Part shown: positions 11,501 through 22,337 of the stretch, in pieces | Layout: the number at the start of each line of letters is the position of its first letter | How positions within the stretch are numbered: position 1 is the first letter of the stretch | IMG/VR virus record: IMGVR_UViG_3300048029_000018 | Location: 1 to 22,433 of that record | Origin: a virus | DNA: 22,433 nucleotides | Direction: 5' to 3' (one strand) | Made by a program: the position numbers and the translations under genes | Notes under the pieces: model-generated | What the model was told of the DNA's origin: nothing | Database searches by the model: none | Seen by the model: only the letters and a program-made list of their open reading frames with translations

Positions 11501-12448
11501 CATCATAACTTGCTCAGACTTGCCCATCGCATCATCAATGTTTTTCTGCAAGGTACGAAGCGTTGTTGCTGCCTGATTAATGTCTGCCTCGACCTTACCC
11601 GTAATTCTGGAAGACTCTTCGAACATCTCTTGCGTCATGTTTCCGCGTGAACGAAACACAGATAAGAAGGAGTTGACGCCGTTGCCGACCAAAGTGTCTT
11701 GTTCTGCAATTTCTGCAATCGGCTTGCCAATAGCTTTACCAGTTGCCAGTACGCCACGGGCAACAGGAGAAACAATAGGGGCTGAAGCTTTGACAGTCAT
11801 CTTGCCACCAAACCCAACGGCTTTTAGCGCAGGTTCGACAGCGGCAGTGGCACCCATTGCTTCAAGCGCAACCTTTACTCTGTTGCCAATCTGAGCGGCA
11901 GCAAGTTCTCTGCCCTCTAGCCCTATGGTGTCAATGGTTTTTGTGGGTCCAGCGTCAAAAAAGTCCCCGATAGTGGTTACACCATCTGTAGCCACAACCG
12001 CATCCGTCACACCAGCCGCGCCAATCTGTGCAGCTTTCTGTGCTAGGTTCGGAAGATTTTTTATACGGCTTAGTTTGCTAACAGCACCAGCCGCTCCCAA
12101 ACCTGGGATAACAAATTGTGTGATGACTTCCGCAATCTCACCCGCAGCACCTTCAGGGTCTATACCTGCGGCGGCACGAATACCATCGAAAGCTTCTGTA
12201 ACATCACGAGAGTAGCTAGTGTCAAGTGCAAGGTCCACGGCAGAAGCACCGAGTTCCGCGATCCCCTGTGGGATGGCAAGCAAACCAGATGCTACACCTT
12301 CAGCAATCTCCTGTGTCGTTGACTCTTGGGTCTCGGACATAGGTTCTGGAGCGGACTCACCAAAGAGTTGCTGTTCTTCAGGAGCGGACTCACCAAAGAG
12401 TTGCTGTTCCTCCTCAACAGGAACACCAAAGAGTTGCTGTTCAACCAT
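8555..12448 (-). CDS. Very large internal/ejection-type virion protein (1297 aa)
   Basis: The largest gene, with a strong AAGGAGG ribosome-binding site 4 bases before the ATG. I assign it to the virion because it lies between other structural genes and lysozyme, as T7 gene 16 and similar large ejection proteins do; no enzyme motif is visible. The N-terminus has three copies of EQQLFG at 11-residue spacing (residues 3-30). Residues about 46-75 and 103-125 are glycine/alanine-rich and partly hydrophobic (VITQFVIPGLGAAGAV). The middle is long and helical with charged segments, a plan common to proteins that cross the cell envelope with the DNA. The C-terminal 100 residues are Pro/Gln/Ala-rich (low complexity), ending in a hydrophobic GGIIGLLSSGNP segment. 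I see no transglycosylase signature. Exact role unproven. Confidence 0.75.
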   Translation of the reverse strand: MVEQQLFGVPVEEEQQLFGESAPEEQQLFGESAPEPMSETQESTTQEIAEGVASGLLAIPQGIAELGASAVDLALDTSYSRDVTEAFDGIRAAAGIDPEGAAGEIAEVITQFVIPGLGAAGAVSKLSRIKNLPNLAQKAAQIGAAGVTDAVVATDGVTTIGDFFDAGPTKTIDTIGLEGRELAAAQIGNRVKVALEAMGATAAVEPALKAVGFGGKMTVKASAPIVSPVARGVLATGKAIGKPIAEIAEQDTLVGNGVNSFLSVFRSRGNMTQEMFEESSRITGKVEADINQAATTLRTLQKNIDDAMGKSEQVMMDGSPIARSELNNRLYEYLTGTSELSSLPTFMAEPAKAMRQQVDKLSNDIVNSDYLTNQGNEKVIEAIKENIGSYLRRRYKIFEDKTYIGSDEFVAERGKTIQFFKDNPELAKKIGEEMLEKGHRIEDGDITELATGLRLTDEYAQRLTDDYVSQYAGSNRKLPGAGKQKSSTPTRIAKNKIKTGLFATRQAVPEQLRRLLGEVKDPQEAFISTVADMAEFRAIDDFYGYVNNNLVDGAEGLVLSSEAYARLPMAEKAKYAEEALGEGFGSLQGKYVTRRLYNDLTSMVIGNAGTMGNIARSTYSAFLRAKGISQASKTIYSPITQVRNVTSAGLFATMQGNVGAGANLWDSVGLVWNNINKRADKADYFQNLQRLGVVGTQSQIREMDRLISEGLGGTRVAEIDDLGIPSSGSFADTFRRGKAGSFLSGVNRKARDFYQGGDDVWKVYNFEFEKNKILKALGSEAEVRAAFGKSSDEYAADIVKNTVPNYERVPEIVKSLRKLPVGNFIAFPAEIIRTSANTLKQSLDELASSNAKVREIGMRRLMGSTMTMFVAPATIQKMAMDLTGVSEEQMEAVRETAAPWQQNSRLIPTSVDKKGRVTGYIDYSYTNPYDYLQRPFLAVLNAVNRGEEMGSDTGKIASDAILGSVGEIFAPFGSESIITERIVDATVRGGRTQTGAKVYRDEDTVGDKAMKSFFHIADSFVPGAAPITLKGMRKETQDPGMEFGRFARSLMSDTTDPNGNERRVAQEIFRAFTGITENEVKPENIMMYRGYEYGRALQSTSQIFNTAVSTRSQLDPQNAIDTYTEANESRLRVMNEMYRVVQNMRKLGISDAEIRRTLKKNKVAEVTALMQGRFVPFKPSKEIRKRVRQNGNNLPMSEIFRIRNEFRSRKLGAQPEPEAQVEEPRTPDLAPSAPQTQQPVAAAVPPPAAAQAGAVPAQVAAPAPTSQPQGSGGIIGLLSSGNPIDALKNLQIFERNQ
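12348..12442 (-). repeat. Three tandem 33-bp repeats encoding EQQLFG units
   Basis: A 29-base segment at 12348-12376 is repeated identically at 12381-12409 (period 33), and its last 19 bases recur at 12424-12442. In protein terms this gives EQQLFG at 11-residue spacing at the start of the 1297-residue protein. Near-identity at DNA level points to recent slippage or unequal recombination, so copy number may vary between related phages. Confidence 0.9.
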
Positions 12449-14392: not shown

Positions 14393-15219
14393 TAAGTAGC
14401 CCTCACACCCATATTAAACAAATTACCAAAACCACCTGCTGAACCTGCTGCACCGAGACCCGCTATCCCAAGACCTAGAAGCTGTGAGCCAAGGCTTGGT
14501 GGTGGCGTGGTAGATGTTTGCATAGTTGATTGCAACGCTGGTACACCACGGAAGATGTCTGACAAGAAGCCTATCTCTTGGAATGGCAACGCTTGCTGCG
14601 CTAGTGTGTTTGCCCTTGCAACATCGAGGCCTGCCTGTTGCTGACGCTGCTGCAAGCTACCAATACCTAAAAGCTGGTTAATATCCTGCATACCCATTTG
14701 CTGTTGTGCTTGGCCTAGACCAGCCTGCAACTGTGCTGCGCGTTGCGCTGCCTGTTGTGCCTGCTCAAAGCCCTGCTGTCTTAGCTGACCAGCCGCTCTG
14801 GTCTGCTGTTCTAAAGTCTTACCTGCTAACTCACCCTGCGCTACGCCAAAACGAGAGCCACCAAATGCACCAGAAGCTACGCCTTGACCTGCTAACTGTG
14901 TCTGTGCCTTTGCACCCTCACGACCAATGTCCTGCATTGTCTGCTGAACAACCTGCTGCTCGTATGGGTTCATAAACTGCTGTGCGCCGCCGGGTCCTGC
15001 AAACTGCTGCGCCGCCTGCAAGTATGGCTGATAACCGCCAATGCCTGCCTGTGCCTGTGAGATGGCTTGCTGTTGTGCACTTGACAGCCCTGCTAGCTGT
15101 TGTGGCGCAAAAGGTTGTGGAGTTCCTTTAAGCGCGGTAGCTTGCGCAAAAATATCCTTTAGGAATTGTTCCTGAAAGGGTGCGAGTCTCGCTACTTGTT
15201 CTACTGTTTGTGTTGACAT
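14392..15219 (-). CDS. Gln/Ala-rich virion protein, probable internal (gp14-like) ejection protein
   Basis: A 275-residue protein very rich in Gln, Ala and Gly. The first 50 residues (ARLAPFQEQFLKDIFAQA) look helical. The middle (about 45-220) is an alanine/glutamine helix region with many QQ and AQ pairs (FEQAQQAAQRAAQLQAGL), likely long amphipathic helices. The end is Gly/Leu-rich (LGSQLLGLGIAGLGAAGSAG) and could insert into a membrane or pack in an internal core. Small Gln/Ala-rich proteins in this position (before larger ejection proteins) are typical of marine podoviruses, comparable in place to T7 gp14; sequence similarity to T7 itself is not visible. TAATG overlaps on both sides. Confidence 0.65.
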   Translation of the reverse strand: MSTQTVEQVARLAPFQEQFLKDIFAQATALKGTPQPFAPQQLAGLSSAQQQAISQAQAGIGGYQPYLQAAQQFAGPGGAQQFMNPYEQQVVQQTMQDIGREGAKAQTQLAGQGVASGAFGGSRFGVAQGELAGKTLEQQTRAAGQLRQQGFEQAQQAAQRAAQLQAGLGQAQQQMGMQDINQLLGIGSLQQRQQQAGLDVARANTLAQQALPFQEIGFLSDIFRGVPALQSTMQTSTTPPPSLGSQLLGLGIAGLGAAGSAGGFGNLFNMGVRAT

Positions 15220-16067
15220 TATCCAGTCGCCTCTAGTTCTGACATCATATCATATAATCGTGCCGCACCGATATCTCTATCTCCTTCGCCAGCACCTCTA
15301 ACAGCCTTGGCTGTCAAAACAAATTCCCCGTCGGAGAGTCTCGCAGGCACAGAATCAGATGTTCCTGTCCCCGGTCCGTCAACTTCACCACCACCCGCAT
15401 GTACGTCACCACCATTAGCATATCCAGAAGAACGAGCAACAGGAGCATATGGGTCATTGTAATAATCATAACCCGGCTTTTGAAGCTGCCTTAACTCCTG
15501 ACGATAACTCTCCATCTGTCGTGGGTCATTTACATCATACTCTGTTCCAGACCTGCCGACAACTGTACCAAAGGCTTCACCTGGAGGACCATAGTCAATC
15601 GGCCTTGCTTGTCCTTCTTCTTCCTCACCCAGACCACCAAGCAGACCCAAACCAGCGGCACCCAAACCTAACTTTGTGCCCATACCCATGTCATCAAACA
15701 AGGAGAAGATACCCTTGCTTTCCCCTGACCCAGTAGCGGCTTCGGCTGTTCTAAGGAACTGACCGCTTCCCCTGCTTCCTACTGGCAAAGAAGCCGGAGT
15801 TCCCATCCCCATCATAGACGTGCCTTTGTAACTTGGGACAAGACTACTAATGCCTGTGCCTGTGCCCTGCCCAAAGCCAAAACCTTTTGCAGCGTAGCCA
15901 CTTATACCGCCCAAAGCGGCAGCTTTCAATGCATCCTCTACATCTCCCCCACCAGCAAGTGAACCAATGCCAGAGCCGATAGCCGCGCCCATAGGACCGC
16001 CAAGAGCAAAACCAACAGCACCCCCAATAGGTGCTAGTGCTTTTTTAAATGACTTGAATAAACCCAT
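15219..16067 (-). CDS. Glycine-rich virion protein with conserved phage C-terminal motif
   Basis: A 282-residue protein. After a basic start (MGLFKSFKKALAPIG) come glycine-zipper-like repeats (GGAVGFALGGPMGAAIGSGI) over residues about 10-60, which favour membrane insertion or close helix packing. The middle is Gly/Met-rich, with another hydrophobic Gly/Leu run near 130-145 (LGLGAAGLGLLGGLG). The last 60 residues hold GPGTGTSDSVPARLSDGEFV, a motif widely seen at the ends of phage injection and tail proteins, followed by LTAKAVRGAG. Function in that motif is unknown to me. The context suggests an ejection or neck protein. Coupled by TAATG at both ends. Confidence 0.65.
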   Translation of the reverse strand: MGLFKSFKKALAPIGGAVGFALGGPMGAAIGSGIGSLAGGGDVEDALKAAALGGISGYAAKGFGFGQGTGTGISSLVPSYKGTSMMGMGTPASLPVGSRGSGQFLRTAEAATGSGESKGIFSLFDDMGMGTKLGLGAAGLGLLGGLGEEEEGQARPIDYGPPGEAFGTVVGRSGTEYDVNDPRQMESYRQELRQLQKPGYDYYNDPYAPVARSSGYANGGDVHAGGGEVDGPGTGTSDSVPARLSDGEFVLTAKAVRGAGEGDRDIGAARLYDMMSELEATG

Positions 16068-16294
16068 TATGCAACCTTTACCGTGCCACTATCGTTATAC
16101 AAGGACCCAGTTTCAAGGCCCGTCGCTGAAGTAGGCAGATCCGTCAGCGTTAGTTTAGTTCCTCGCATCTCACCAGGATTACGCTCTTGCTCAATAAAAG
16201 TCTGCAACGAACGTAGTAAATCCGCCATATACTGCTGTGAGTATTCGGTCGGCGGTTCTGGAAGCCTTGGTGGTGCAACCTGATTACTTGACAT
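16067..16294 (-). CDS. Small conserved structural-module protein of unknown function
   Basis: A 75-residue soluble protein, TAATG-coupled to the gp10-like gene before it and to the Gly-rich protein after it. It starts with a Pro-rich segment (VAPPRLPEPPTEYSQQY), has one predicted helix (MADLLRSLQTFIEQERN) and ends with LPTSATGLETGSLYNDSGTV, a short beta-type motif I recall in phage structural proteins next to fibre genes. No enzyme or membrane features. It may be a minor virion or assembly protein. Confidence 0.6.
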   Translation of the reverse strand: MSSNQVAPPRLPEPPTEYSQQYMADLLRSLQTFIEQERNPGEMRGTKLTLTDLPTSATGLETGSLYNDSGTVKVA

Positions 16295-19200
16295 TATCTT
16301 CTACCATCCTGCCTTATGTCTACACGCGGACTACCCAGCTTCCACTTAGACCCTAATGCATTTGATTCTACACGAAGTGCGAAGGAACGTCCACGAACTC
16401 TTAAATCTAACTGTTCAGTAAACTCCTCTACTGGCGTAGTTTGTGTGCGAGTTGCTGTGCCACTTTGCGTGTTATCGAAGTCTGCCCCCGGATTATTACG
16501 GGCTTTAACCGTAAACGTGGCCTGCGGCGTGGCTAAGTTCGTTGACCCGTCAAAGGTTAAATCAGGTATGACCTTGCGCAAATATGTAAATCTGTCGCCG
16601 TCACCAATGTCTATCGCCGCCGACTCAATAAACGAATCCATAGCGGAGCCGTCATCATCATAGCCAAACTCGTGGTTGTAGATGTATCCGTCCCCAACAG
16701 CTAGAGGGAAGGACCGTGTTCCACGGTCCAACCACGCGGTTCTTTCTATCGTGCCAAAATACCACACTTTTTCAGAGTAGTTGTACGTTACATAGCGGTC
16801 ATTGTCGCTTGAATTAGCAGAAGGATAGAACCAAGTCACTTCACTAAACTCGGAGTTAATACCAGATACAACCTTGTCGCGCTCACTTAGGTTAAAATCT
16901 AAAAATACTTTATCCTTGACAGTGCATGGAAGGGTCTGTGTTTGACCAGCATATACATAGAACGTATCAATGCCCATCCAGAACACAAAGTCCTCTGTGG
17001 AAACCGCTGAGTTAGGACTCATAATCGTAATGTTACTGGATAGCTGCTGAAGGCCAAAGGTGAACGGCGGTCCTATGAACCGCATAGAAGTAAGCGCGGT
17101 ATCTGTCCACACCAATATCTCACGCTTTGTCTCTACAGCCTGTACAAAGGTAGAACCAGCCCCCAAGCGCAAATCACCTGCGGTGTTGGTGCTTGTCGGA
17201 TACCACTCAGTAGGGTTCTCTTGGTCAGAGAAGCGAATAAGCAACGGGTCTTGTATCCCGTCACCATCTGTGGCTGAAGAGCTTGTATTTAATCCGTCTG
17301 AACCAAAGGCAATTACATGCCTGTCACGGTCAGAAACAAGAATTTGTTTACACAATGTAGGTACACTGGTCTTCGTGCCTGCAATAGATTTTAGCTCCAC
17401 TGCTCTGGTAGACAGGTTGTTAGTCCTGTCCCAATAATAAATCTTGTCATCACGAGGATTGAGTAGCAAGTCTTCGCCAAAGTTGTCGTGAGACCATAAA
17501 CGTATCTGCGTTTTCGTAGTCAAACCACCCGATGCTGCTTGCCCCCAACCTGAAAAGTCATCTGCGGGGTCGGCATTACCTAAAGCCAACTGCACAACAG
17601 AGCCGTCTGCATGTGTCGTAGCTGTAGTTCCAGAGTGCCCTCTTGTACAACTTGTAAGGTCATTACCAGAAACCCCGCCTACAAGAATAAGCTCTGTGCC
17701 TATGAATACAACGTCACCCGCTACAATGCCGCTCGTACTTGTCAGCGTAATAGTGGTATCAGAAGCCGTTAAAGTTGCACCTTCGTTCAGGGTTGTCTGC
17801 AAGGCTGTGTTGGTAACACCTGACCATAGACCCGCTCCCCAACCTGTACCGCCAACCGTGGTGTTCAAGCCTACATTGACTTGATATTCGCCCACGGTGT
17901 TATTAACCAAGGTAGCAACGTCAAAGCCTAAGACTTGAGGGGAGGAAGTGAGAGCTTGAGGAGAAAAAGCAACAAAACTGGCTATAGGAAAGGCAAAGGT
18001 AAAAGAATCGCCCACAGACCAACCACTGCCAGCGGCTGTTATTTCTTTAACAGCGTAGCTGTAATCAAATCTGTATGAATAAAGAACAGGAGGCCCCGGG
18101 TTCACAACACTAGTACCCACCACATCCGTTGTGGCTTCTAAAACAACAGTCACAGTTTGACCGCCAGAATTATATGTTTTTGAAATAGTACCTTTTACAA
18201 CTGTGTCGATATCTAAGACAAGATCGTTGGTTGGACTTGTTCCACCAAGGTCTGTCCCTAGTATTGTTATTGTTCTGGATGCATCGTAACCAGTGCCTCC
18301 ATTAGTAACTGCATCTACAGTATATCCACCAGCACCATCAGTGGTGATGGTAAATTCTGCATCTACCCCACTGCCACCACTTACCGTACCTGTTACGCCA
18401 GTAAAGGTCGCCGCACCAGTAGATGTGCCTGAGTTTACGATTACTGTAGAAACAGGGTTGTTGTTTTCAAAAGGATTCCAAAATTCTGCGGAAAGTTGTG
18501 TGCTTGGCCCTAGAACATGTCTTTCAAAGCTAACACCCGCATTTGTTGTGCCAGTTAAAGAAAAAACCCCGTCTGTAGACCCATCAAGAGTGTCGCCACC
18601 TATAGACGCTACTGTAATCACCAAATCGTTTGCAGGCGTTAAACCACCTAACTGTGTACCTAATATTGTTATGGTGTCGCTTACTGCGTAATCAACTCCA
18701 AGATCAGTAACAGTAACTACATAGGTACCCGAAGAGTTTACTACAGTAAATGTAGCCCCTGTTCCCGAACCACTTGTAGAATCTTGTGTGACCCCTGAAT
18801 ATGTTCCGGCTGTAACAACTGGAGTTCCTGACACTGTGGTTGTGAGTATCCCTGATGTTGTTGCTGTGGCAGAAGTGGTGATTTCATAGTTGTCTGCATC
18901 AATAACACGAGAGATTTGATGTTCTTTGTTTAATACCGCAGAGGTAATATTTCCACCAAGACTTTCGGCATTGGAAAAAGTAACATAGTCAAACTGTGCC
19001 GCACCGTGTCCTGCATCTGTGACTGTAACCACAGAACTTTTGTGCGTTGCAGAAAAACTAACGGCTCCGTTTGCACTAGTTGTTCTACGCACAGGTGTGA
19101 TGTCGTTAAGGTTGCCGCCCTCTTCAATGTAGTATTTTAGATGGGAGCCGATGCCTAGATAGTTCGCGCCATCTAGTGCAATCCAGTTATGTAAAGCACG

Positions 19201-19368
19201 AGCCGTGCCTAGATAGGTGCTACTGGTGTACTTCTCCCACCCACCTATCTTTTCAGGAAAGCCAAACCGAAAGCGTATTTTATCGCAATCACGCCAGCCA
19301 CCTTCATTAGAATACGAAGTGACTTCTCTGTTTATACCGGGTTTAAATTGTAATTTGGTAAGCGGCAT
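16294..19368 (-). CDS. P22 gp10-like packaged-DNA stabilization / tail hub protein with inserted beta domains
   Basis: A 1024-residue tail protein. Residues 1-92 (FKPGINREVTSYSNEGGW, then LGIGSHLKYYIEEGG) and about 600-1024 resemble, from memory, the tail-accessory/DNA-stabilization proteins of P22 gp10 type found in many marine podoviruses. The C-terminal part is beta-rich (propeller-like) and ends LRVRGRSFALRVESN and GSPRVDIRQDGRR. Such proteins close the portal after packaging and connect to the fibres. Residues about 100-600 are an insertion of Thr/Ser/Gly-rich beta domains, including two related copies (about 184-253 and 309-386) each ending TITILGT-x-LGG-x-x-P-x-NDLV. A further module near 529-596 contains CTRGHSGTTATTHADGSVV, a pattern common in phage surface proteins. 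The insertions roughly double the usual length (P22 gp10 is about 470). Confidence 0.72.
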   Translation of the reverse strand: MPLTKLQFKPGINREVTSYSNEGGWRDCDKIRFRFGFPEKIGGWEKYTSSTYLGTARALHNWIALDGANYLGIGSHLKYYIEEGGNLNDITPVRRTTSANGAVSFSATHKSSVVTVTDAGHGAAQFDYVTFSNAESLGGNITSAVLNKEHQISRVIDADNYEITTSATATTSGILTTTVSGTPVVTAGTYSGVTQDSTSGSGTGATFTVVNSSGTYVVTVTDLGVDYAVSDTITILGTQLGGLTPANDLVITVASIGGDTLDGSTDGVFSLTGTTNAGVSFERHVLGPSTQLSAEFWNPFENNNPVSTVIVNSGTSTGAATFTGVTGTVSGGSGVDAEFTITTDGAGGYTVDAVTNGGTGYDASRTITILGTDLGGTSPTNDLVLDIDTVVKGTISKTYNSGGQTVTVVLEATTDVVGTSVVNPGPPVLYSYRFDYSYAVKEITAAGSGWSVGDSFTFAFPIASFVAFSPQALTSSPQVLGFDVATLVNNTVGEYQVNVGLNTTVGGTGWGAGLWSGVTNTALQTTLNEGATLTASDTTITLTSTSGIVAGDVVFIGTELILVGGVSGNDLTSCTRGHSGTTATTHADGSVVQLALGNADPADDFSGWGQAASGGLTTKTQIRLWSHDNFGEDLLLNPRDDKIYYWDRTNNLSTRAVELKSIAGTKTSVPTLCKQILVSDRDRHVIAFGSDGLNTSSSATDGDGIQDPLLIRFSDQENPTEWYPTSTNTAGDLRLGAGSTFVQAVETKREILVWTDTALTSMRFIGPPFTFGLQQLSSNITIMSPNSAVSTEDFVFWMGIDTFYVYAGQTQTLPCTVKDKVFLDFNLSERDKVVSGINSEFSEVTWFYPSANSSDNDRYVTYNYSEKVWYFGTIERTAWLDRGTRSFPLAVGDGYIYNHEFGYDDDGSAMDSFIESAAIDIGDGDRFTYLRKVIPDLTFDGSTNLATPQATFTVKARNNPGADFDNTQSGTATRTQTTPVEEFTEQLDLRVRGRSFALRVESNALGSKWKLGSPRVDIRQDGRR
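18211..18819 (-). repeat. Two divergent copies of a beta-domain within the gp10-like protein
   Basis: Copy A is residues about 184-253 (18819-18610) and copy B about 309-386 (18444-18211). Both run GTG-or-GSG, a strand, Y-x-V-x-x-V-T, a G-x-x-Y turn, then TITILGT, LGG and NDLV. A weaker third echo (residues about 421-461) has AAGSGWSVGDSFTF. This looks like duplication of an Ig-like or carbohydrate-binding surface module. Confidence 0.7.
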
Positions 19369-19369
19369 T

Positions 19370-20389
19370 TTACACCCCTGTCACTGAGCCATTTGTGGCT
19401 CCACCTGTTAAGGTGTCTAAAATACTGCTTCTACGGCTGTTACTTGTAGTCAAGCTAGTTGAAAGCCATCCCGGTTGAGAATAAACGGTGGCTCCTGAGT
19501 CCATGTCAGTGGCCTTGGCGTTAGAAGCAAACCAAAAGTGACGCTGACCATTAATGACCCTAGAGCCAAAGGCTAAATCTCTAGCATCTCTGCCAAAATA
19601 AGTGTAAATAGTGTTTATAACATATGTTGATGTATCGCTAATGTTTAACGCGCCAGAGCCATCTAAAGGAAAAATGGATGAAATATTATATGACCCTGAA
19701 CCTCTATTACTGTAATCAAGTTCGTTGTATGTCCAGCTTGCAGTGAACGTGTTACCAGAGCGCGTAAGTTTACAGTTAAAGCCAACGCCATAATCACTGT
19801 GATAAATGTCAGGGGCTGAAGCGCCGCCAAAACCACCTACAAAATTCATCTGTGCAGAGCCGTTGCCAGAGAAGGTGGAGTTAAACCCTTCACTGGTTGA
19901 ACCTGTCACAGACCCATTATTTGTAACAGCGACAGTTTGAGAACTTAAATTGTTTATAGCATATGCGCCTGTGGAAGTAATTGTACCGTTATTAGTTATA
20001 GTTAGTGTACCCGCCGCACCAGAAGGATATTTAATTGCGTCTGTTCCAACGCTACTAGAAACGGTTATGCTAGCATTTACAACAATTCTTTTTGGGTAGT
20101 TAACGGTGTAGTCAGAACCAAATATAGTAGACGCATCTTGGTCTGTGTCATTAGAAGAAAATGTTTTTTGAAAAGCTCTCTCTTGAGAGTGAAAGTTACC
20201 CAAGGAAAACGCACCACTTGTCGGCACATTTGCAGATAAATTAACAGCGTTGCTGTTTCCAGCTAACGAGCGTACCAGACTACCACCTCTGTAGTAGTCC
20301 GCCATAGATATAGCGGTGTTACTACCAGTATTGTACTCCGTTCTGAGGTCGCCAAAACTGATAGGATTTCCAGATGCTGGTAGAGCCAT
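19370..20389 (-). CDS. Tail fibre / tail tip protein
   Basis: A 339-residue, Ser/Thr/Asn/Gly-rich, beta-predicted protein starting one base after its neighbour. The N-terminus has PISFGDLRTEYNTGSN then ISMADYYRGGSLV, a widespread adapter motif at the start of phage fibre and tip proteins. Residues about 125-165 show strand repeats (LTITNNGTITSTG, VAVTNNGSVTG), as in glycine/asparagine-rich adhesin tips. The C-terminal part (YFGRDARDLAFGSRVINGQRHFWFAS) looks like a separate globular tip. It probably contributes to host recognition. Next to the gp10-like hub, as expected for a fibre attached there. Confidence 0.7.
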   Translation of the reverse strand: MALPASGNPISFGDLRTEYNTGSNTAISMADYYRGGSLVRSLAGNSNAVNLSANVPTSGAFSLGNFHSQERAFQKTFSSNDTDQDASTIFGSDYTVNYPKRIVVNASITVSSSVGTDAIKYPSGAAGTLTITNNGTITSTGAYAINNLSSQTVAVTNNGSVTGSTSEGFNSTFSGNGSAQMNFVGGFGGASAPDIYHSDYGVGFNCKLTRSGNTFTASWTYNELDYSNRGSGSYNISSIFPLDGSGALNISDTSTYVINTIYTYFGRDARDLAFGSRVINGQRHFWFASNAKATDMDSGATVYSQPGWLSTSLTTSNSRRSSILDTLTGGATNGSVTGV

Positions 20390-21027
20390 TAAGGTGTTCC
20401 ATAAGCCGTAATATTATCAGAGGCGACAACCGCGCCTGTGTTAGATAGTTTAAATACCGTAGTCCCATTATACTTGAACCGAAGATCATTACTCCCTGGA
20501 GCAAGTTCAATTTCCCATTTACTAGAACCAAACAAAATTGCGTTTCCGTTTGTATCTAAGTCACCGCCCAACTGCGGAGTTGTGTCGTTCACAAGGTCAG
20601 TGGGGGCAGCAAGAGTGCTAGTGAAATCTGATACCTGTGCACCCGCACCTGCGCCATCCGCATAAATAATAGAGGTGTCGCCATTGTTTACAGTTGCTAT
20701 GCCGCCCGTGCCTTGCCTAAATTCAACTTGCTGACCAGAGTTGTTCTGCACAAAATATAGCTTCTCCTGGTCATTGGGGCTAATGGTAATAAGGGTTGTA
20801 CCTGTTGGCGCACCGCCTAAAACCAACACTTTATAATGCCCGTCAGAAGGCTGCCCATCGGTGGTGGTCAGGGTGTGGCTAGTTCCCGCAAGTGTTATTG
20901 CACCAACACCGCCAGCAACACGGTCAATAATATCAAAGTTTGTATTTACAGTCGCACCCCAAGCACCCGCCTGTTCACCTGAACCGGGCTTTTGTATGCC
21001 TGAGTTTGAAGTATATGTACTTGCCAT
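20389..21027 (-). CDS. Tail fibre protein with conserved marine-phage N-terminus
   Basis: A 212-residue protein. Residues 2-38 (STYTSNSGIQKPGSGEQAGAWG, NTNFDIIDR) are a known N-terminal module of fibre proteins in marine and other podoviruses, where it attaches the fibre to the tail. Residues about 40-120 are a beta-rich segment with ITLAGTSHTLTTTDG, LVLGGAPTG and ISPNDQEKLYFVQNNSGQ, resembling repeated strands of fibre shafts. The end (LGGDLDTNGNAILFG, FKYNGTTVFKLSNTG) is a short beta repeat often seen near fibre tips. Probable receptor-binding or shaft component. TAATG overlap with the next gene; it directly abuts the previous gene. Confidence 0.72.
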   Translation of the reverse strand: MASTYTSNSGIQKPGSGEQAGAWGATVNTNFDIIDRVAGGVGAITLAGTSHTLTTTDGQPSDGHYKVLVLGGAPTGTTLITISPNDQEKLYFVQNNSGQQVEFRQGTGGIATVNNGDTSIIYADGAGAGAQVSDFTSTLAAPTDLVNDTTPQLGGDLDTNGNAILFGSSKWEIELAPGSNDLRFKYNGTTVFKLSNTGAVVASDNITAYGTP

Positions 21028-21750
21028 TTAGACCACCTTCTCAATCCACTGCTCTATTGTACCACCAGCGTTGATTTGTGTCCATGTATCACCGCTATGT
21101 GTAATAGGCGTCCAGTTTTCTACGCCGCCTGTTGCCGCGTTTATATTTACCCAAAGCAGTTCGCCAAAAGTGCTCTGTACGAATAGATGTACCATATCAG
21201 ATTCTGCTGGAACAATTAAGCCACCAAGACTAGATTGGTCAAACTGCGAAATCTGCGTTGAGTTACCACTAAAGATAACACTAAGTATGGTATCCCCCTG
21301 CTCGAAGCTGGCATCCATTTCTGCCGCACCACCCGCTAATTTATTAGCTAGTGCAGACTGTATGGTCGTGAAGTCCTGCTCTGATACACCACCTAGAACC
21401 GCTACGCCGTCAGAGACTTGTGTGAAACTGAAGTCCTGGTTTGACGCACCCTTTAGTATGGCTTGCGGTGTTGTTGTCTGTGTGGTGTTGATTACCTGTG
21501 CAGATATCCCCGTAGCAAAGCGGGTAAGGTCAGAGCTTAGTACAAAGTCCGTGGAGCTTTCAACAAGACCCACGAGAATGCCAACACCAACCGAGGTCTT
21601 AGTAGCAATGGCGGACATTTCTGCCCCGCCATCCGCCACCAATGTAGCGGTGTTTACTGCCTGAAAGTTTGCATCAGACGTAGACGTGCCGAACGCAATG
21701 ATACCGTGCGCCGCTATAGCTCTTTCAGATAATGCAAACTCACCGAACAT
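21028..21750 (-). CDS. Fibre-like protein built from 20-residue repeats
   Basis: A 240-residue protein in the fibre cluster. From residue 1 to about 180 the sequence can be laid out in lines of exactly 20 residues, with Gly opening seven successive lines (21, 41, 61, 81, 101, 121, 141). Within the lines position 4 is often Glu, position 6 often Asp/Ser, position 11 often Gln/Lys, and positions 18-19 mostly hydrophobic (examples: GASNQDFSFTQVSDGVAVLG, GVSEQDFTTIQSALANKLAG). This suggests a repetitive beta fold such as a solenoid or fibrous trimer shaft. The last 60 residues are Trp-rich (LLWVNI, NWTPI, TWTQI, QWIEKV), a pattern common in virion surface proteins. No named domain recognised. Probably a host-contact fibre or accessory spike. 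Confidence 0.6.
   Translation of the reverse strand: MFGEFALSERAIAAHGIIAFGTSTSDANFQAVNTATLVADGGAEMSAIATKTSVGVGILVGLVESSTDFVLSSDLTRFATGISAQVINTTQTTTPQAILKGASNQDFSFTQVSDGVAVLGGVSEQDFTTIQSALANKLAGGAAEMDASFEQGDTILSVIFSGNSTQISQFDQSSLGGLIVPAESDMVHLFVQSTFGELLWVNINAATGGVENWTPITHSGDTWTQINAGGTIEQWIEKVV
21211..21690 (-). repeat. Eight tandem 60-bp-period protein repeats (20 residues each)
   Basis: Residues 21-180 of the fibre-like protein form eight successive 20-residue units without insertion or deletion; Gly begins units 1-7. DNA identity between units is low, so this is an old, structurally constrained repeat rather than recent slippage. The first 20 residues may be a ninth, weaker unit. Confidence 0.65.
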
Positions 21751-22337
21751 TAGCCAGCAATCTCCATTAAAACAAACGCGCTTCCTGATGCTATGCTATC
21801 GCTCCCTGAATCGTTTTCAGCGCGATTCCATGCCATAAACTCATTATTGCTAGAAGCCAATTTAGGAGTTCCTCTATTCCCGGAACTAACAGTCCCTTGG
21901 ATACCCCCACCTTTAATAGAGTAGGTGATTGCAGATGTTGTTGCGGGGTTATCAAGATACTGAAAACTAATTGCATTAGGGCTGTAAGCATTGTCACTAT
22001 ATTGCCCTGTCCCCAAAAACCCAACAGCATTCATTGTTGTGTCTGTGCTATTTCCAATAACTGTAGAATCTCTTAAAAGCCAGAAGCAAACGTCATTGTT
22101 GTTACCAAAATGAAACATCCCATAAAACATTACTAAGATTTTACTGGACGTTGAAGAAGGGGTTATTGTAGCGGTAGCGGGGCAAGCAATAGCGTCGCCA
22201 TTGGCTGAAGTTGTAGTCTTCGACTGAGTATCAGACCAACCTTGGACAACCTGCAACACCGTACCACTAGACAGCTTAGAAGACGGCACTGTGGTGCTTG
22301 TTCCCATTAAGTCAGCAAGTGTTCTAGCATTACTCAT
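21750..22337 (-). CDS. Tail fibre / receptor-binding-type protein
   Basis: A 195-residue protein with a GGAG ribosome-binding site in the end of the preceding gene. The N-terminus (MSNARTLADLMGTSTTVPSS) matches a short leader I know from fibre proteins of marine phages. The rest is beta-predicted and polar: VLQVVQGWSDT, a strand set SSKILVMFYGMFHFGN, then FWLLRDSTVIGNSTD and a C-terminal YSIKGGG, FVLMEIAG. This strand order is that of small jelly-roll-like fibre heads, such as those that bind sugars; the fold call is inference. First complete gene of the fibre group in the window, coupled by TAATG to the repeat protein. Confidence 0.65.
   Translation of the reverse strand: MSNARTLADLMGTSTTVPSSKLSSGTVLQVVQGWSDTQSKTTTSANGDAIACPATATITPSSTSSKILVMFYGMFHFGNNNDVCFWLLRDSTVIGNSTDTTMNAVGFLGTGQYSDNAYSPNAISFQYLDNPATTSAITYSIKGGGIQGTVSSGNRGTPKLASSNNEFMAWNRAENDSGSDSIASGSAFVLMEIAG

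Follow-up and report, generated by a model that had tools for sequence, protein, structure and literature searches.

A gene for a protein of 20-residue repeats, the probable proximal shaft of a marine podovirus tail fibre

The window, that is the whole stretch of 22,433 nucleotides of viral DNA analysed here (IMG/VR record IMGVR_UViG_3300048029_000018), carries on its minus strand a gene for a repeat protein of 240 amino acids (P0001; positions 21028-21750, with the ATG at 21750 and the stop at 21028-21030), and both start and stop of this open reading frame are conserved across relatives. The neighbouring genes on the same strand are of fibre-like character. Upstream, a 195-aa protein (21750-22337) is similar to the C-terminal portion of a tail fibre family (phrog_6942, E 5e-14) and, directly downstream, a partner gene (20389-21027) whose ATG follows the stop of the repeat-protein gene as TAAATG encodes a tail-fibre-like protein of PHROG 31104 with a constant N-terminus (MASTYTSNSGIQKPGSGEQAGAWG...). 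Promoter and terminator matches near the repeat-protein gene were no better than shuffle level. Further along the strand, a protein of 1024 aa (16294-19368) matches the tail nozzle or 'stabilization' proteins (phrog_3287, E 2.7e-66), which marks the region as a podovirus tail module. Homologues of this nozzle-like protein are present in HTVC023P, HTVC027P, CRP-901/902 and DSL-LC04, and weakly in PaP4-type phages. It is longer than the 712-aa counterpart in the related locus L008 by about 310 residues, lying roughly between residues 190 and 510, and this extra stretch contains two similar beta-rich segments (..TITILGT.LGG.. repeated). Other proteins encoded on the minus strand also contain short motifs. 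An 11-residue motif (EEQQLFGESAP-like; 12292-12448) occurs three times at the N-terminus of a 1297-aa protein, and the frame opposite also has a period of 11. A 282-aa protein (15219-16067) ends in the motif GGxVxGPGxGxSDSVPARLSDGEFVLTAxAV, which is similar over short stretches to several tape-measure PHROGs and is odd for a podovirus module.

The repeat protein opens with a signature of 20 residues (MFGEFALSERAIAAHGIIAF; 21691-21750), which is conserved in relatives, also opens gp68 of HTVC023P and is a probable virion anchor. Thereafter the unit profile places unit 1 at residues 21-40 (21631-21690), unit 2 at residues 41-60 (GGAEMSAIATKTSVGVGILV; 21571-21630), units 3-7 at residues 61-160 (21271-21570), a single extra residue, 161 (21268-21270), giving a spacing of 21 between units 7 and 8, and units 8 and 9 at residues 162-181 and 182-201 (21148-21267), with the junction motif GELLW at their end. 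The remaining 39 residues before the stop (202-240; 21031-21147) form a Trp-rich C-terminus (WTPITHSGDTWTQINAGGTIEQW) with Trp spaced 10-12 residues apart, also conserved in relatives. A preliminary description of this DNA had reported a 20-residue period over residues 1-180 (21211-21750), with Gly at residues 21, 41, 61, 81, 101, 121 and 141. These glycines lie exactly as claimed, and in a BLOSUM62 autocorrelation of residues 1-180 the period is evident at lag 20 (z=5.3) and lag 40 (z=5.8), with no other lag above z=2.6. Significance was assessed with 20,000 shuffles of the protein at lags 5 to 59; the lag 20 score was reached by none of them, and 5e-5 of shuffles attained such a z at one or other of these lags. 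The period is stronger still (z=9.2) in the L008 relative, which is 54% identical to the window protein. The further statement that eight units run without indels needs amending, since the exact register extends over seven units (residues 21-160) and is then broken by residue 161, the total being nine units.

The unit consensus is G-V-S-[ETD]-[MLQ]-D-[AF]-N-F-T-Q-T-[ST]-x-G-x-x-I-x-x. Hydropathy alternates along it, with positions 5, 7, 9 and 18 hydrophobic, positions 4, 6, 8 and 11 polar, and Gly conserved at positions 1 and 15; on sequence grounds, such a pattern would result if positions 4-11 made an amphipathic strand, followed by a turn near Gly15 and another, short strand. An RTX beta-roll was considered and rejected, as the consensus is without the GGxGxDxUx nonapeptide. 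The composition of the protein is fibre-like, free of Cys and rich in Thr, Ser, Ala and Gly. AlphaFold2, run on the monomer with 33 homologues, gave a mean pLDDT of 42.6 and placed two low-confidence strands in each unit (residues 3-11 and 15-20), while the monomer of a more regular relative (pLDDT 40.2) was drawn with strands of about 16 residues, in disagreement with the first model. Since both models are weak, nothing more specific than a beta-rich repeat shaft is claimed, and within that explanation two alternative folds have to be weighed.

In a monomeric, two-sided beta-solenoid, each 20-residue unit would make one turn and the strands would stack in register into an adhesin-like rod. 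Two strands and tight turns within 20 residues suit a flat solenoid, and Foldseek found that the first, low-confidence model resembles mainly beta-solenoids in the PDB (pectate lyases, haemolysin A and ice-binding proteins), although all matches were at E 0.34 or worse with a TM of about 0.25. True monomeric solenoids are usually predicted well by AlphaFold2, and yet a pLDDT of only about 42 was reached here; moreover, no asparagine ladder or capping motif was recognised. Such a solenoid is possible but doubtful. The other fold, an intertwined homotrimer like a triple beta-spiral or beta-prism with the 20-residue units set along the fibre, has close to an even chance of being correct. It agrees with the phage fibre gene context, the fibre-like composition and the strand-turn-strand pattern with its conserved Gly, and the failure of a monomer prediction that nevertheless draws strands gives a slight lean towards a trimer. 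On the other side, profile searches gave no significant match to any solved fibre, and the unit of 20 residues is unlike the approximately 15 residues of adenovirus shafts. Other PDB matches were to capsid proteins (whole-protein profile, E 0.003 to 0.01, over a low-complexity stretch) and to S-layer proteins (three-unit profile, E 0.013); these were rejected as chance or compositional, because they are marginal and no fibre is among them.

Scans of IMG/VR, reaching down to 26% identity, yielded 64 distinct relatives after the removal of duplicates, all from marine virus contigs and 154 to 340 residues long. They share one architecture, consisting of a short N-terminal signature (family pattern M[FL]GxxA[IFL]SExxI), 4-14 units of 20 residues and a Trp-rich C-terminus, which is joined to the units by the motif G-x-L-[LY]-W, with Phe in some. 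Trp is absent outside the last 75 residues in every relative. By the unit profile, 373 of the 423 intervals between units measure exactly 20 residues and 34 measure 21; random indels between units were not seen in the relatives. Measured from the start, the junction Trp or Phe lies 120-123, 139, 159, 199-201, 219-221 or 301-302 residues away, with a single exception at 208. Among periods of 13-30, the fit of these lengths to multiples of 20 is the highest (mean resultant 0.88 over the whole set of proteins and 0.81 when each length is counted once). Clustering of the lengths at whole-unit intervals indicates that the shaft changes length stepwise, by whole units. Neighbouring units in two relatives (L030 and L036) are still 70-77% identical in DNA, suggesting that units probably arise by tandem duplication. 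In addition, a 14-unit relative (L055, 3914-4933) has a self-repeat at 140 residues, or seven units, with a second copy of a special SVGVGILV unit, and block duplication may therefore be a growth route of long shafts.

Another reading is that the sequence is low-complexity and beta-prone, without any repeating structure, and that the period is a relic of gene duplication. Average identity among the units of a single protein is only about 29%, and the window gene itself retains little DNA trace of duplication, its best unit pair being 50% identical. Nevertheless, exact spacing has outlasted this divergence and total length varies by complete units. Both observations imply that the period is under selection, and a mere relic is highly improbable. 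Genome context, conserved architecture and quantised lengths, by contrast, give good support to the preliminary description's proposal of a phage fibre that has a repeating shaft and a Trp-rich end.

In every relative with enough downstream sequence, the gene for the MAST... fibre partner is the next gene, at a gap of 0-34 nt, and the exact TAAATG junction of the window recurs in 44 of the 64 relatives. Partner proteins combine a constant N-terminus with a C-terminus very variable in length; complete partners measure 207 to 590 aa. Conservation within the repeat protein is highest in the last 30 residues (mean identity 0.65). In 25 nine-unit proteins, unit 2 is the most conserved of the units (0.51 versus 0.35-0.47 for the others); it is without the consensus Phe, occupies a fixed place in most relatives and may be a contact site or hinge. 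The Trp-rich end also contains additional 10-residue copies in the L008 and L057 relatives. The earlier suggestion of a Trp-rich attachment or binding end is upheld as regards the presence of such an end, but coupling to the next fibre protein is better supported than receptor binding. Were the Trp-rich C-terminus instead a receptor-binding tip, the shaft would be a terminal fibre not connected to the next protein; ends rich in aromatic residues are able to bind sugars, and the fibre does end there. This alternative is unlikely, in that a C-terminus better conserved than any unit is the opposite of a usual receptor-binding tip, while the variation sits behind the constant start of the next gene's product.

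Covariation of sequence distances was examined over 43 non-redundant loci, using partial correlations that allow for the nozzle protein. The C-terminus of the repeat protein tracks the N-terminus of the partner (partial r 0.40, P 0.001), a correlation confounded by the fact that the two stretches adjoin in DNA and stay linked under recombination. The N-terminus of the repeat protein does not track the partner (0.07, P 0.16) and follows the nozzle instead (0.26), so that the two ends together fit a shaft coupled to its partner. The repeat protein of L009 (5001-5780) is 81% identical overall to that of L008 (4832-5611) and strongly different in the first 40 residues, suggesting an exchange of the N-terminal module, which fits modularity.

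Taken together, the repeat protein is probably the beta-rich proximal rod of a marine podovirus tail fibre, anchored N-terminally and coupled C-terminally to the next-encoded fibre protein; its presence in the virion is suggested by synteny. The N-terminal 20 or so residues would anchor the shaft on the virion, and nine units, each with the sequence pattern of two short beta strands and a fold predicted from it, would form a rigid shaft. The number of units would act as a ruler, and the quantised lengths of the relatives are consistent with this role. The Trp-rich C-terminus, with beta repeats of about 10 residues, would couple to the constant N-terminus of the partner, and the variable C-terminus of the partner would contact the host; the strict pairing of the genes argues for both steps. 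A bolder interpretation, offered tentatively, is that the protein has a fibrous beta fold not described before, built on an invariable unit of 20 residues, through which marine podoviruses tune fibre length by whole units while anchor and coupling end stay constant, with shaft and receptor-binding part as separate, interchangeable genes. The finding names one component and predicts its partner, the natural series of 4- to 14-unit shafts is material for studying fibre length and reach, and the repeat protein is a clean candidate for a new repeat fold.

The preliminary description could name no family for the protein, and none in Pfam, NCBIfam or PHROGs covers it. There was no homologue of the window protein at E<=1 in 50,697 phage records, none of two regular relatives at E<=0.1 in the phage records, and no confirmed relative in bacterial and archaeal genomes; a literature search for phage tail repeats of 20 residues turned up no account of such a protein. 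Membership of the T7-type tail fibres (PF03906) was rejected, there being no Pfam match above cut-off. Similar layouts do occur in the same slot of isolated phages. HTVC023P gp68 (QGZ17697.1) and URG13121.1 of 023Pt_psg01, a 'hypothetical protein', stand, as in the window, just before the MAST... fibre gene, and share with the window protein the AIS.xPxA N-terminal signature, tandem beta-type repeats and a Trp-containing C-terminus. However, HTVC023P gp68 has a period of about 22 and another consensus (xVTGxQ...G), and only its first 23 or so residues align significantly with the family profile (hhalign E 3.6e-4), whereas the repeats do not. WJZ48131.1 of DSL-LC04 and HTVC027P gp68 (QGZ17849.1) likewise have repeats and a Trp-containing end before the partner gene, but WG-rich stretches replace the MFG signature, there is no significant profile alignment, and the repeats of WJZ48131.1 are of 22 residues rather than 20. 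The 22-residue VTG-type repeats of DSL-LC04 (L100, 1150-2280) and HTVC023P (L099, 7988-8668) are annotated only as 'hypothetical protein'. These differing repeats suggest that beta repeats of more than one kind can occupy the slot while the ends stay similar, and the similar layouts in HTVC023P, 023Pt_psg01 and DSL-LC04 are counted in favour of a fibre shaft. Roseobacter phage CRP-902 gp53 (WED25149.1) also has a 20-residue period (lag 20 z 6.4) and lies in a tail gene cluster, but its unit is unrelated (GVAGTGAIGTE...), its N-terminal domain is another one (phrog_28581), and two genes separate it from the fibre gene. Repeat shafts are already known in marine phage fibres (PMC3909814), and the protein is accordingly a recognisable phage fibre shaft and not wholly unknown; what is new is the separate shaft gene, the fixed 20-residue unit and the stepwise length. 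The T7-like tail fibres of pelagiphages combine a constant PF03906 N-terminus, a fibre-specific repeat pattern and a variable end (PMC3909814), whereas here the shaft and the variable part are split over two genes.
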